From: Muribaculaceae bacterium
GTDB taxonomy: Bacteria > Bacteroidota > Bacteroidia > Bacteroidales > Muribaculaceae
NCBI GenBank assembly: GCA_022510445.1
Contig: JAFLTN010000016.1
Coordinates: forward strand, 1 to 34,175
DNA: 34,175 nucleotides
Direction: 5' to 3'
The translations under genes were made by a program, and so were the position numbers. The notes below the pieces were generated by a model. It was not told the origin of the DNA. It worked only from the letters and a program-made list of their open reading frames with translations, and did not search any database. Below are positions 23,157 through 33,869 of this stretch, piece after piece; the first letter of the stretch is position 1; every line of letters starts with the position of its first letter.

Positions 23157-23230
23157 AGCCTCTTGTCGGATTCGAACCAACGACCCCGAGATTACAAATC
23201 ACGTGCTCTGGCCAACTGAGCTAAAGAGGC
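23157..23230 (-). tRNA. tRNA-Thr (anticodon TGT)
   Basis: The 74-base cloverleaf has acceptor GCCTCTT/AAGAGGC, D-arm GCTC/GAGC, loop TTTGTAA (anticodon TGT), T-arm GTTGG/CCGAC with TTCGAAT, and discriminator T. The anticodon stem CGTGA/TCTCG has a T-T mismatch in its third pair (29-41), while all other stems pair well. CCA is not encoded. The 5' end is only 4 bases after the probable SRP RNA, so both come from the promoter at 23334-23365. Confidence 0.93.
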
Positions 23231-23234
23231 GTTT

Positions 23235-23329
23235 GGGAGAGCGATCTACATCGCACAGCTCAACCTAATACCCTTGCTTCGGTCAAGATCTGGGGGATTC
23301 TCAGGGAGCAAGTCGTGCAGGACTCACCC
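23235..23329 (-). ncRNA. ffs: Probable 4.5S signal recognition particle RNA
   Basis: This 95-base stretch folds into one long rod. GGGTGAG at the 5' end pairs with CTCTCCC at the 3' end (one U-U), then come GCAC/GTGC, GCTC/GAGC, CCT/AGG, AAT/ATT and CCC/GGG towards an apex reading TTGACCGAAGCAAGG. A GATGTAG segment on the 3' arm matches the position of the same motif in bacterial 4.5S RNA. Length, rod shape and a perfect promoter exactly 4 bases upstream support an abundant stable RNA, best read as SRP RNA. The apex differs from the enterobacterial GGTCCGGAAGG form, so the family call is not certain. The 3' end lies 4 bases before tRNA-Thr. Confidence 0.65.
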
Positions 23330-23333
23330 ATTG

Positions 23334-23365
23334 CAAAATTACATTATCTTTCTCTTTCCTCCAAA
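23334..23365 (-). promoter_or_regulatory. Bacteroidetes-type promoter for SRP RNA and tRNA-Thr
   Basis: On the minus strand TTTG (23362-23365), a 20-base spacer and TAATTTTG (23334-23341). Both boxes match the consensus exactly. The expected start coincides with the GGG that begins the rod-shaped RNA at 23329, which supports a stable RNA gene there. Confidence 0.8.
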
Positions 23366-30259: not shown

Positions 30260-31048
30260 CTATGCTGTTTTCACAGGGATTCCGGTTTCCTTCTCTATCT
30301 TTTCTGCTATTTTTGCCAGTTCAGCCTTTTCAACTTTCACAAGTTTTTCTTCAGGTGTAGACCGGTCTATACTGTAAATCATTATTTCCTTAGGCCTTAT
30401 CTCTCTATAAGCAGCAATAAGGGCTTCAATTTCTCGGGAGGTTGTATTGTCCACTTTAACTCCATCATGTTCTCCACGTAGAAACATTGTCTGAATTATA
30501 GCATTGCCCGAAAATTTTTTTAACCCTTCTATGAGCTTCTTTACAGTGAAATCGGGTGAATTCGGACAATCAATGACCCGCATTGTAGTCTCCACACCCG
30601 AATCAAGTTTAAGGATATTATTGTCTACTTTTTTTAAAGCTTTTTCTATCTCCGGAGAGAAAATTTTGGTAGAATTGCTAAGTACGGATACTTTTGCTTC
30701 AGGATAAAATTCATTTCTTAAAGCCATGACATCATCAAGAATTTCCGGGAAATCTGGATGAAGTGTTGGTTCACCATTTCCGGAAAAAGTCAAAACGTCA
30801 AGATTTTCTCCCTTTTCCCTCATAGAAACAAGTTTGTTACGCAGATCGTTATAAACTTTTTCTTTGGGTGGAAGACCCGTGGTTCCGGTTCCTTGGCGGT
30901 TATAACCTGCCTCGCAATAAATACAATCGAATGAACAGACTTTTCCGTCGTCAGGACCCAGATTTATTCCTAAAGAGACACCAAGCCTGCGGCTATGTAT
31001 CGGTCCGAAAACCGTAGAATGAAACAATACTGTTTGATCTTTTCCCAT
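30260..31048 (-). CDS. Radical SAM protein (COG0731-like)
   Basis: 262 residues. The radical SAM cluster motif is C38-x3-C42-x2-C45 in VCSFDCIYCEAGYN, preceded by FGPIHSRRLGVSLGINLGPD, which is typical of the COG0731 group (related to wybutosine-type enzymes). LTFSGNGEPTLHPDF is the conserved GGEP-like SAM-binding segment, followed by VSVLSNSTKIF. The C-terminal half completes a partial TIM barrel. The reaction is unknown. It is the first gene of a two-gene unit with the LD-carboxypeptidase and has a clear promoter at 31109-31139. Confidence 0.92.
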   Translation of the reverse strand: MGKDQTVLFHSTVFGPIHSRRLGVSLGINLGPDDGKVCSFDCIYCEAGYNRQGTGTTGLPPKEKVYNDLRNKLVSMREKGENLDVLTFSGNGEPTLHPDFPEILDDVMALRNEFYPEAKVSVLSNSTKIFSPEIEKALKKVDNNILKLDSGVETTMRVIDCPNSPDFTVKKLIEGLKKFSGNAIIQTMFLRGEHDGVKVDNTTSREIEALIAAYREIRPKEIMIYSIDRSTPEEKLVKVEKAELAKIAEKIEKETGIPVKTA

Positions 31049-31139: not shown

Positions 31140-31291
31140 CTTTACTTATGATTGATCTTTAATTTTAAAAATATTTTTTTGAAATTTAGACATTTACATA
31201 TTTTCTAAGAAAAATATTAAATTTTTTTCAAAAATCAGTGAACCTATTTATCCTTTTAAGAGTTATAATTACGTGACAAGGATGTTCCAGA

Positions 31292-31469
31292 CCTGCAAGC
31301 GAGAGCACGTTTAAAGTTTTTAGATGCCCAAGAGCCGTAAACTTTTATTCAACGGATGCCAAGCTTAGGAAAAGAAAAAATTTTCACATTGCAGAAACGA
31401 GTGCACGTAGAAACCTCAACCGGATGCCCAAGAGCACGGAAGTTTTAGAATGCGGATGCCAAGATCTAC
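31292..31469 (+). repeat. Two tandem RNA units with 100-base period and four GATGCC(C)AAG boxes
   Basis: GATGCCCAAGAGC occurs at 31323-31335 and 31423-31435, and GGATGCCAAG at 31354-31363 and 31454-31463, so both boxes repeat at exactly 100 bases. In unit 1 the first box lies in the loop of AAAGTTT (31313-31319) with AAACTTT (31339-31345); the unit is closed by CCT/AAGC with GCTTAGG (31363-31369). In unit 2 the first box lies in the loop of CCG (31420-31422) with CGG (31437-31439), extended by AAAC/GTTT, and GTAGA (31407-31411) pairs with TCTAC (31465-31469). Stem sequences differ while boxes are kept, as expected for a conserved RNA. Confidence 0.8.
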
Positions 31470-31673
31470 CAGGTGAAGAGAAAAAGTCTGTGTTATGAAA
31501 GGAAAAAATAATCCCGGCCGGCCAATATAGATACAAAGCGAAAAAAAGTCGGCCGGGACACTTTATAAGACAACGAAAAGGATCTTAACATCAAGTCGAA
31601 AAGATAGAGAAGGTTAAACAATCATTCTGCTTTAAAGATATAACCTTTTCGTAACCTTGATGTTGCGGGGGCT

Positions 31674-31708
31674 ACGGGAGAAATTCCAAGGCTCCCGTTT
31701 CGTTTTTA
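31674..31708 (+). terminator. Intrinsic terminator of the candidate RNA
   Basis: ACGGGAG (31674-31680) pairs with CTCCCGT (31692-31698) around an 11-base loop, followed by TTCGTTTTT. The stem with U-run reads on the plus strand, fixing the direction of the RNA upstream. Confidence 0.8.
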
Positions 31709-31709
31709 T

Positions 31710-31935
31710 ATCTGTCGATAACTTGTAGAAAAGTTGTTTTTTATTTTTTCATACATTCATCACTCTTATTTTTTAAAAGATTTGATTTCTTCATCTTTTC
31801 TCCTATTATAAAAACATTCTCATTTCTTCCAAATTAAAAGTTAGAGAGATTTCCTTTTACTTATCTTCATGCAACATTGAGGTTTTACATATATTTTTAG
31901 ACCGCTTATTGACGTCGATTATAAAGGAATTTATT
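31710..31935. other. AT-rich spacer with no recognised gene
   Basis: Between the terminator and the nadA promoter lies about 225 bases of very AT-rich sequence with homopolymer T runs. I see no reading frame of note and no strong inverted repeat in it. Confidence 0.6.
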
Positions 31936-31967
31936 TAAATTTGCACTTATCAACAACTTGTTCATAA
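31936..31967 (+). promoter_or_regulatory. Candidate nadA promoter box with adjacent operator-like dyad
   Basis: TAAATTTG at 31936-31943 matches the -7 box exactly; the nearest upstream TTG (31909-31911) is 24 bases away, which is long. Four bases after the box begins a dyad, TTATCAACAA (31947-31956), C, TTGTTCATAA (31958-31967), imperfect at one pair. A dyad at the expected start site suggests a repressor site. The nadA leader would be about 185 bases. Confidence 0.45.
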
Positions 31968-32150
31968 TTATTTTATCATGTTGATTTTCAATTAAAGCTA
32001 ATGTCTACAACCTGCAAATAAGTCAACCTGAAACATCAATAACTCAATTTTCCAAATTTTTTGGTGAAAAGTTATCGTTCTTATCTACACCCTTTATTGT
32101 TGTTTTTATTCTTTTAATTTAATTTTTATAAAAGATAATATTAATAAAAA

Positions 32151-33101
32151 ATGGAGAAGAATCCCACCCTTGAACGTTTGAGTTGGTTGCGCGAAGAAAT
32201 TTCTCGACTTAAAAAAGAGAAAAATGCACTCATAATGGCTCATTATTATCAGAGAGATGAAATCCAGGAAATAGCAGATTTCATTGGTGATTCGCTGGCT
32301 CTGGCGAGACAGGCGGCAAAAACAGATGCCGATATCATAGTGATGTGTGGTGTGCATTTTATGGGGGAAACCGCCAAGATTCTTTCTCCTGAAAAGAAAG
32401 TTCTAATACCCGACACTGAAGCGGGATGTTCACTGGCTGACAGTTGTAATCCTGAAGAATTTGAAAAATTTGTAAAAGAGCATCCTGACCATACGGTGAT
32501 AAGCTATGTGAACACATCAGCAGCCGTAAAGGCTTTAACCGATATTGTCGTCACATCAGGAAATGCACGTCAGATTGTGGAACAGCTTCCTGAAGATGAA
32601 AAAATAATCTTCGGTCCTGATAAAAACTTAGGGGAATATATAAATAGTGTCACTGGAAGAAAAATGTTGCTTTGGGATGGAGCTTGCCATGTGCATGACA
32701 GATTTTCTCTTGAAAAGATAGCTCAGATGAAAAAGGAACATCCGGGAGCTAAGGTATTGGTTCATCCTGAATGTAGGAGACCTCTCCAACTTATAGCTGA
32801 CAAGGTAGGTTCCACGGCAGCTCTCCTTGATTTTGCTGCAAAAGATGATTCAAAGGAATATATAGTAGTGACGGAAAGCGGCATTCTTTTTGAAATGAAG
32901 AAGAAATGTCCGGAAAAAATATTTCTTGCAGCTCCGGCAGATGATGCAGAGTGTCAGTGTAATGAATGTAATTTCATGAAACTTAACACATTGGAGAAAG
33001 TTTATAGTTGTCTGCGTGATGAAAAACATGAAATTACCGTTGATCCCCTCATAGCTGAAAAAGCTGTGCGTCCCATTGAAAGAATGCTCGCAATGAGTTG
33101 A
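32151..33101 (+). CDS. nadA: Quinolinate synthase NadA
   Basis: 316 residues, the [4Fe-4S] enzyme that joins iminoaspartate and dihydroxyacetone phosphate into quinolinate for de novo NAD synthesis. Motifs: NALIMAHYYQRDEIQEIADF, VMCGVHFMGETAKILSP, and three cluster-type cysteines in AGCSLADSC, VHPECRRPL and the CQCNECNFMKLNTLEK segment. The triple-repeat domain layout is complete. nadB and nadC are not in the window. It lies 7 bases before the RNA methyltransferase gene, so the two are probably cotranscribed. The long upstream leader with a dyad suggests regulation at the promoter. Confidence 0.96.
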   Translation: MEKNPTLERLSWLREEISRLKKEKNALIMAHYYQRDEIQEIADFIGDSLALARQAAKTDADIIVMCGVHFMGETAKILSPEKKVLIPDTEAGCSLADSCNPEEFEKFVKEHPDHTVISYVNTSAAVKALTDIVVTSGNARQIVEQLPEDEKIIFGPDKNLGEYINSVTGRKMLLWDGACHVHDRFSLEKIAQMKKEHPGAKVLVHPECRRPLQLIADKVGSTAALLDFAAKDDSKEYIVVTESGILFEMKKKCPEKIFLAAPADDAECQCNECNFMKLNTLEKVYSCLRDEKHEITVDPLIAEKAVRPIERMLAMS

Positions 33102-33108
33102 AAAAATA

Positions 33109-33669
33109 GTGTTTTTATTAGAAAAGGATAATTTGGAAACTGACAGGAAGAAAAAGAATATAATAGAACTCACAAGGACAAGTCTGAGAGAATATAGGGA
33201 AAAGGAGAAGCTTCCGATAGCGGTCCTGCTTGATAATGTGAGGTCTATGTATAATGTAGGAGCTGTTTTCCGCACAGCAGACGCTTTTCTTTTACACGGC
33301 ATTATGCTTTCAGGAATTACGGGATGTCCTCCTCACCCTGAAATTTCGAAGACAGCTTTGGGAGCCGAAGAGAGTGTGGAATGGAGTTATTTCTCTGATT
33401 CTGTTAAGGCAGTTAAGGAAATGAAAAAGAAAGGTTGGAAGATTTGTGTATTGGAACAGACTCACAACAGTCTTCCCTTACAGGATTTCATACCTTTGAA
33501 AAATGAAAAATATCTCCTTGTTGCCGGAAATGAGGTGAACGGAGTAAATCAAGAAATAGTAGATAAGGCTGATATTGTAATAGAAATTCCACAGTATGGG
33601 GTTAAACACTCTCTTAATGTATCAGTGAGTGTTGGGATAGCCCTTTGGCAGATGGTAGAGAAATATTGA
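33109..33669 (+). CDS. TrmH/SpoU family RNA 2'-O-methyltransferase
   Basis: 186 residues. SPOUT-fold motifs: motif 1 DNVRSMYNVGAVFRTADAFL, motif 2 KYLLVAGNEVNGVNQEIVDK, motif 3 IVIEIPQYGVKHSLNVSVSV, forming the knot that binds SAM. It methylates a ribose in tRNA or rRNA; the exact site cannot be read. The start is taken as GTG 33109, 7 bases after nadA; TTG 33133 behind an AAAGGA sequence is an alternative that drops 8 residues. The family normally ranges from 150 to 260 residues, so it has only a short N-terminal extension. Confidence 0.92.
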   Translation: MFLLEKDNLETDRKKKNIIELTRTSLREYREKEKLPIAVLLDNVRSMYNVGAVFRTADAFLLHGIMLSGITGCPPHPEISKTALGAEESVEWSYFSDSVKAVKEMKKKGWKICVLEQTHNSLPLQDFIPLKNEKYLLVAGNEVNGVNQEIVDKADIVIEIPQYGVKHSLNVSVSVGIALWQMVEKY

Positions 33670-33700
33670 GTTCTAAAACAAAGTTTAACAGAATCAATAA

Positions 33701-33727
33701 TGCCTTGCCGGCAAATCCTACAAGGCA
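33701..33727 (+). terminator. Possible hairpin terminator after the RNA methyltransferase gene
   Basis: TGCCTTG (33701-33707) pairs exactly with CAAGGCA (33721-33727), 31 bases after the stop. There is no U-run after it on the plus strand, so function as a terminator is uncertain. Confidence 0.35.
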
Positions 33728-33769
33728 AATAAAGATTATAACAAAAGTGATAACAAGGAAGAGCACGCC

Positions 33770-33869
33770 GTTTTATATGCTGAAGAATCAATGTGGATTT
33801 CCCTACTCCTCTTTGTCCTAAAAGACCGATGCTCCTTACATCCCAATAATTCTTTCTCTGACATAACAA
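33770..33869 (-). pseudogene. N-terminal relic of a P-loop ATPase gene
   Basis: On the minus strand LLCQRKNYWDVRSIGLLGQR then GVGKSTLILQHIK is a convincing start of an AAA-type ATPase: GQRGVGKST is a Walker A motif with normal flanks. Directly after HIK the frame turns into sequence with no resemblance to an ATPase (RRALPCYHFCYNLYLPCRIC), and it ends within 75 codons while crossing the RNA methyltransferase gene. Upstream the same frame has TYDSIVN followed by a stop, suggesting the original start was further out. It is a truncated remnant, distinct in sequence from the intact ATPase at 592-1731. Confidence 0.65.

Follow-up and report, generated by a model that had tools for sequence, protein, structure and literature searches.

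A predicted RNA gene of Muribaculaceae with an invariant 3′ core and a candidate lipoprotein target

MicL of Escherichia coli is an sRNA that lowers the synthesis of one abundant outer-membrane lipoprotein and is made from a stress-type sigma promoter. The sponge RNAs CsrB and RsmZ are large and carry repeated GGA-containing elements. In the part of PMC11697453 drawn on here, the FopS sRNAs of Bacteroides thetaiotaomicron are described as repressors that cover the start codons of outer-membrane protein mRNAs; they are about 65–70 nt long, comprise 14 paralogues, carry the seed in a single-stranded 5′ end, have canonical promoters and have been deposited in Rfam. The same part describes GibS as a single sRNA with two seeds that pairs with translation initiation regions and responds to GlcNAc-containing carbohydrates (PMC11697453). 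A literature search combining Muribaculaceae or Muribaculum with small or noncoding RNA found no paper on an sRNA of these bacteria, judged by title and the start of the abstract. Bacteria of this family are abundant in the mouse gut. The RNA examined here appears, from its sequence, to be previously undescribed. It lies on contig JAFLTN010000016.1 of a Muribaculaceae bacterium; the window is the whole stretch analysed, 34,175 nucleotides.

The locus lies in a 1.1-kb gap that holds no plausible gene. To the left of the gap is a radical SAM gene (minus strand, 30260–31048; Pfam), to the right a plus-strand gene that begins at 32151 and that we take from its sequence to be nadA. The sole listed open reading frame of at least 60 aa in this gap is an antisense frame at its right edge (32106–32357). 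The initial annotation had placed an RNA-like feature of about 440 bases here, and this is borne out. The gene-free region as a whole is not RNA; its left half is the RNA feature, while the right part is a putative oriC and lies outside it. The features are as follows.

31239–31267, plus strand: promoter-like pair, TGAAC at 31239–31243 and GTTATA at 31262–31267, with 22 nt from the start of GAAC to the start of GTTATA
31274–31707, plus strand: predicted RNA of about 434 nt, with ends inferred from promoter and terminator; has homologues, ten of them aligned end to end
31276–31287, plus strand: 5′ segment ACAAGGATGTTC, which, with two variable positions, is found in 9 of 36 tabulated RNA-bearing genomes and defines the long type
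31298–31365, plus strand: structured unit 1 of the tandem, aligned units (inner copy degenerate in the window's genome)
31396–31465, plus strand: structured unit 2 of the tandem, aligned units
31492–31502, plus strand: GTTATGAAAGG, complement of the core, resembling a start region; 11 pairs in 10 of 10 long-type sequences
31512–31558, plus strand: GC-rich hairpin of 11 bp; helix 8 of the full-length structure, with 98% of cells paired
31573–31595, plus strand: stretch peculiar to the window's genome that contains two 9-nt segments complementary to the core, neither 9-mer being present in the nine other long-type homologues
31643–31663, plus strand: invariant core and proposed antisense seed ACCTTTTCGTAACCTTGATGT, in 45 of 45 aligned rows
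31666–31707, plus strand: intrinsic terminator, 12 pairs, 8 of them with changes on both sides (45 rows)
31713–32089, no strand assigned: putative oriC, from a site scan (three exact TTATCNACA sites) and a GC-skew switch
32151–33101, plus strand: neighbouring gene, presumably nadA

At gathering scores, Rfam 15 gives nothing at the RNA locus; with E up to 5, three chance-level matches appear there, none above its family cut-off. Elsewhere in the window it finds a small SRP RNA and two tRNAs. At 23157–23336 on the minus strand, a tRNA (Thr according to ARAGORN) and the Bacteroidales small SRP RNA lie immediately next to each other. At the RNA locus there is no match to RF00013 (6S RNA) and no Rfam match to RNase P RNA or tmRNA, and ARAGORN finds no tmRNA. 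The initial annotation had seen no signature of RNase P RNA or tmRNA here, and a confident match to a known Rfam family, which would have spoken against its reading, did not occur. The RNA also lacks a conserved reading frame; a small ORF from a conserved GTTATG varies from 6 to 28 codons and is not conserved. Folding energy alone is modest evidence: the whole RNA has a z of −2.0, and shuffled sequences fold as well as either tandem unit (z 0.2 and 1.0). Support for an RNA comes from homology. The GC-rich stem at 31512–31558, which had been noted before, is clearly stable (z −4.5; none of 200 shuffles as stable).

Homologues in related genomes do exist. With a 520-base query and E below 1e-4, blastn against the window's own genome and 36 relatives of the genus gave matches in 16 of the 37 genomes: the window's locus itself, a relative that matches at 70% along the whole length, and 14 genomes in which little but the 3′ core is shared. 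Scanned for exact copies of the 21-nt core, GTDB contigs yielded 46 stretches, of which 45 are labelled by title as Muribaculaceae, Porphyromonadaceae, Bacteroides sp., Amulumruptor or Bacteroidales. In L087, from an Acidobacteria MAG, the core lies by eye within a coding region, and this stretch was dropped from all later counts. Merging the exact-scan stretches with other fetched loci, and counting repeated fetches of one locus once, yields 46 distinct RNA loci.

Of 397 genomes of the family, 47 match a covariance model built from the 3′ domain at E ≤0.001. Matches in 37 genomes fall below 1e-7, all in the window's genus; nine weak ones (E 3e-5 to 9e-4) are in other genera. Among 393 genomes of the order, 22 genomes matched at E 0.01, strongly in the own genome only; most of the 7 of 21 weak matches that were read share little with the core. 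Three weak matches in other families of the order (L093, L095 and L102) match 17, 18 and 19 of 25 positions beside a hairpin and may be remote relatives or chance matches. Viral contigs gave 0 matches. The initial proposal of a Bacteroidales RNA that stands alone, acts in regulation or as a structure and may be undescribed is supported, although strong model matches are confined to one genus. Even there a strong match is absent from many members, some of them 99% complete. A tree of nadA was built from 50 rows, 27 of which have the RNA close by and 23 do not; RNA loci away from nadA are not among them. On this tree the RNA label changes 6 times, against 16.7 when shuffled. The family has probably descended mainly vertically, with losses.

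The 5′ part of the RNA differs between relatives, and several modules recur by eye in other RNAs of the family. L050, L062, L066, L051, L037 and L038 carry GGTGTGGAG; L034, L042, L063, L076 and L082 carry a TGTGCT...TCAAAA stretch; and L035, L036, L039, L052 and L055 carry GGGGGGAG followed by a CCGGGTGAWAGCGG hairpin.

The most conserved part of the RNA is the 21-nt core, and not a stem. The 45-row alignment comprises the window, 14 of 15 fetched relatives (L032 was left out because of an N) and 30 rows from the exact-core scan. These 30 rows are biased, being chosen by an exact core match, and the 14 rows from the 520-base blastn query, whose choice was unbiased by the core, also have it exact. 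Each of 20 genomes has one exact copy; G707 has a second, weak model match. The intrinsic terminator just downstream, already recognised as fixing a plus-strand direction, is conserved, though a simple terminator scan missed it.

Upstream, a GAAC/GTTAT[AT] pair is found in 38 of the 46 RNA loci, with a spacing of 22 in 34 and of 21 in 4 (18–26 allowed), and is not found in the other 8. In 50 mononucleotide shuffles of the upstream regions, pairs at 21–22 nt occurred in a mean of 0.14 loci and at most in 2. A sigma-70 scan did not list this promoter. The GAAC element resembles, we presume, ECF sigma promoters. Transcription probably starts near 31274 from this non-canonical promoter, as judged from its position. 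Taken with the homologues, core and terminator, this makes an RNA gene on the plus strand at 31274–31707 very highly probable on sequence grounds, with a free-standing transcript predicted from the two signals.

The pattern TGAAC-N17-RGTTATA has 56 matches in 32 genomes, 13 being the RNA's own, against 22 for the reversed-pattern control; many lie inside coding frames. With one base more spacing, there are 12 matches and 36 for the reversed control. A wider promoter class beyond the RNA loci is thus possible from the pattern counts. Matches also stand before other genes, for example in L231, L232, L234, L246, L252 and L255, and L234 and L246 have a similar downstream leader.

In the 38 loci with a promoter pair, the predicted length ranges from 79 to 462 nt. 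A diverged housekeeping RNA (6S, tmRNA or RNase P RNA) is highly improbable. The size at the window's locus would fit RNase P RNA or tmRNA, and the 6S model finds no match in the own genome, a weak point since that model misses most of 14 control genomes. Against this stand the chance-level Rfam matches, the patchy occurrence within the genus and the more than fivefold variation in length.

Ten long-type homologues can be aligned end to end, and their 5′ domain is structured. The tandem hairpin units of the initial annotation are real: the 41-nt copies at 31323–31363 and 31423–31463 are 76% identical and 100 nt apart. Across 21 aligned units, 88.7% of cells are paired, and slid versions pair in 28–42%. 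These units hold 39 double-change cells compared with 15.3 ± 3.9 in shuffles (0 of 500 as high), whereas two further measures stay within the shuffle range, 115 of 500 shuffles reaching the number of double-change pairs and 96 of 500 that of pair types. The full-length structure of the ten sequences has 57 pairs with 96.8% of cells paired, 15 double-change cells (4.5 ± 1.8 shuffled; 0 of 500 as high) and 7 double-change pairs (3.1 ± 1.2 shuffled; 0 of 500 as high); its pair types are equalled in 380 of 500 shuffles. Relatedness among the rows can raise the cell counts, and part of the structure was derived from the same sequences. Absence of covariation, which would have spoken against the initial annotation, was thus not observed, but the covariation is partial: the tandem units show compensatory changes, some measures exceeding all shuffles and others not.

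The core has a partner within the long-type RNA. Segment 31492–31502 pairs with 31645–31655 in 110 of 110 cells of the ten sequences; this 11-bp helix of GTTATGAAAAG with the core is kept in all ten, and two departures (in the window and in L080) retain G-U pairs. As it hardly varies, covariation cannot test it. The core-complementary element is present in 9 of 9 long-type genomes and in none of 27 other tabulated genomes. The window also has the 9-bp stem 31587–31595/31656–31664, enclosing a shorter stem, that had been pointed out earlier, but it is not conserved. Its 5′ arm and the second complement at 31573–31581 occur in none of nine other long-type homologues, which makes the stem private to the window's genome; the homologues keep 31492–31502 as another partner for the core segment. 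The core is predicted to be unpaired only a little less in the long type than elsewhere (0.25 against 0.35 and 0.37 against 0.39). Since predicted accessibility hardly differs between types, gating of the core by the 5′ domain is, on these folding predictions, rather doubtful.

The surroundings of the RNA suggest other roles. Four exact TTATCNACA sites occur in the 34-kb window, three of them at 31713–32089; the GC skew switches sign in this region, and the genes on either side are divergently oriented. Region 31713–32150 is thus a putative chromosomal oriC. The adjoining RNA could act in replication start as a primer, through transcriptional activation or as a DnaA ligand. The 1 kb downstream of the core contains at least two TTAT[CT]NACA sites in 22 of the 46 loci (a raw count, with L041 doubtful and some loci cut by contig ends), and the skew of the window switches beside the RNA. 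However, the other 24 loci have fewer than two boxes, L050 and L075 have theirs on the promoter side, and many homologues do not adjoin such a region. In addition, 20 of 23 nadA loci from relatives without a strong RNA match have at least two boxes upstream of nadA. Origin and RNA are therefore separable, and a part in replication is very unlikely.

A leader or riboswitch of nadA can be given next to no weight. In the window the RNA does lie upstream of nadA on the same strand, but the conserved terminator and about 440 bases of origin-like DNA intervene, and many homologues are not adjacent to nadA. Further along the window, a minus-strand reading frame at 33549–33869 resembles, by eye, the beginning of a P-loop ATPase.

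Base pairing is the probable function of the RNA. The complement of the core is ACATCAAGGTTACGAAAAGG; allowing one G-U pair, it becomes CAAGGTTATGAAAAGG, which resembles the start of a gene that encodes an M-K-K/R signal peptide. In 20 RNA-bearing genomes, the 19-nt core complement with at most 3 mismatches has 27 non-self sites and the reversed pattern has 22, so there is no clear overall excess. Three of the 27 sites (in G772, G008 and G591) fall in the leader or start of one orthologous gene, which encodes a Gly/Pro-rich lipoprotein of 120, 136 and 128 aa; the 120-aa protein, the one member examined, matches nothing in Pfam.

Among 57 genomes of the genus (38 with and 19 without a strong RNA match), a protein search turned up the lipoprotein gene in seven, all long-type. 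Long-type genomes number nine among the 36 strong-match genomes that were typed. The gene was not found in the two remaining long-type genomes, the window's own (89.5% complete) and G789 (83%), and it is absent from the 27 other typed genomes, the untyped G628 and G783 and the 19 without a strong match. The lipoprotein is seen at L195 (1511–1870), L257 (1050–1457), L265 and L272–L276. A tRNA-Asp lies 3′ of the gene in L257 (1599–1673); in L195 the start of the same tRNA is seen by eye, cut by the end of the locus.

Duplex energies between the core and the start windows of the seven genes are −26.4, −24.5, −22.8, −22.6, −21.6, −17.2 and −15.3. For the first four, 0, 0, 1 and 1 of 379 other starts are as good; the single background window (L040) overlaps the opposite strand of the RNA itself. 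The value of −21.6 (G712) is equalled by 1 of 379 by background quantiles. The G721 leader has a moderate site (−17.2; 14 of 379 as good) and the G609 leader no good site (−15.3; 41 of 379). In a wider list of 835 starts, which includes loci fetched because they matched, three unrelated starts reach −22.2 to −22.1. The core is thus strongly complementary to five of the seven orthologous leaders, moderately to one and not to one, in the long type only. In G591 and G715 the start codon now lies downstream of the complementary site rather than in it, yet complementarity is kept; this suggests selection on pairing. Separately, the short-type genome G637 has near position 9350 of L287 a lipoprotein-like start, MKKRSLLMGMVLAVCGLVSLTGC, that is complementary to the core (−20.7) and is, by its sequence, a possible further target.

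Several results limit this picture. No near-full antisense site common to all RNA-bearing genomes was found in the 20 genomes, and the window's own genome yielded no target. The 313, 142 and 295 starts of G637, G000 and G609 (750 starts) show no general excess over 20 shuffled cores. In short-type species that have no such lipoprotein gene the core is just as invariant; whatever function it shares across the types must be a different or a wider one. The nine long-type rows also cluster together in the nadA tree, with support (97/73) that falls short of the star threshold of the tool, and the link between RNA and lipoprotein could be shared descent.

The sequence carries a conserved gene with its signals, stems and complementarity, and transcription, repression and gating are inferred. 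The reading we favour, as somewhat more likely than not, is a trans-acting base-pairing sRNA that would prevent translation from starting, as FopS does in Bacteroides; its structured 5′ domain may gate the seed. Transcription would run from about 31274, at the non-canonical promoter, to the terminator near 31707, and the 3′ core would serve as the antisense seed. In long-type relatives it would pair across or just upstream of the start codon of the lipoprotein mRNA, blocking translation initiation of this small Gly/Pro-rich protein. Element GUUAUGAAAAG, which resembles the target start region, may fold back on the core and hold it, and the tandem units would be a 5′ domain that possibly sets when the core is free. 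A more elaborate version is tentative and on balance improbable: a seed invariant throughout the genus, with a body swapped by module, where in one clade a mimic of the target start locks the seed, the tandem motif senses a protein or ligand to unlock it, and the lipoprotein target has, in at least G772, the same kind of promoter.

The units could instead mark a protein-binding or scaffold RNA. Here GAGAGCA ... GA-UGCCAAG would bind a protein, the core would also be a contact for protein or ribosome, and the complementarity to the lipoprotein gene would be secondary. A nearly unchanging internal motif recurs in the units; searched for in 20 genomes, they hit nothing but the RNA loci (16 matches in 9 genomes, E 0.01). 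The core stays the same even where a species lacks the lipoprotein gene. The units are, however, absent from most homologues and cannot be the shared function. CsrA, a candidate for the GGA motifs, is above the Pfam cut-off in none of 61 genus genomes, with one match below it, and the lipoprotein sites would need another cause. A scaffold is unlikely.

The antisense sRNA would belong to a family with a concrete target candidate and an unusual form, namely a constant seed, an exchangeable body and a strictly spaced promoter pair. Like CsrB and RsmZ it is a large RNA with repeated GGA-containing elements; unlike them, it has no CsrA partner above the Pfam cut-off in the genus genomes, and most homologues have no repeats. 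The RNA and lipoprotein together resemble, in our view, MicL and Lpp, although MicL is gammaproteobacterial and unrelated. As far as PMC11697453 describes it, GibS is likewise a single sRNA pairing at translation initiation regions (here a prediction); it has two seeds, and no Rfam family matches the present locus. With FopS, as described in the same part of that report, the RNA shares its occurrence in Bacteroidota, a conserved seed, predicted start-codon pairing and an intrinsic terminator. It differs in having one exact core copy per genome, a predicted length of 79–462 nt, another promoter and no match in the Rfam copy searched. Its seed is at the 3′ end, before the terminator, and that of FopS at the 5′ end. 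If the proposed mechanism is true, start-codon occlusion as in the FopS of Bacteroides would extend to another family through an unrelated RNA.
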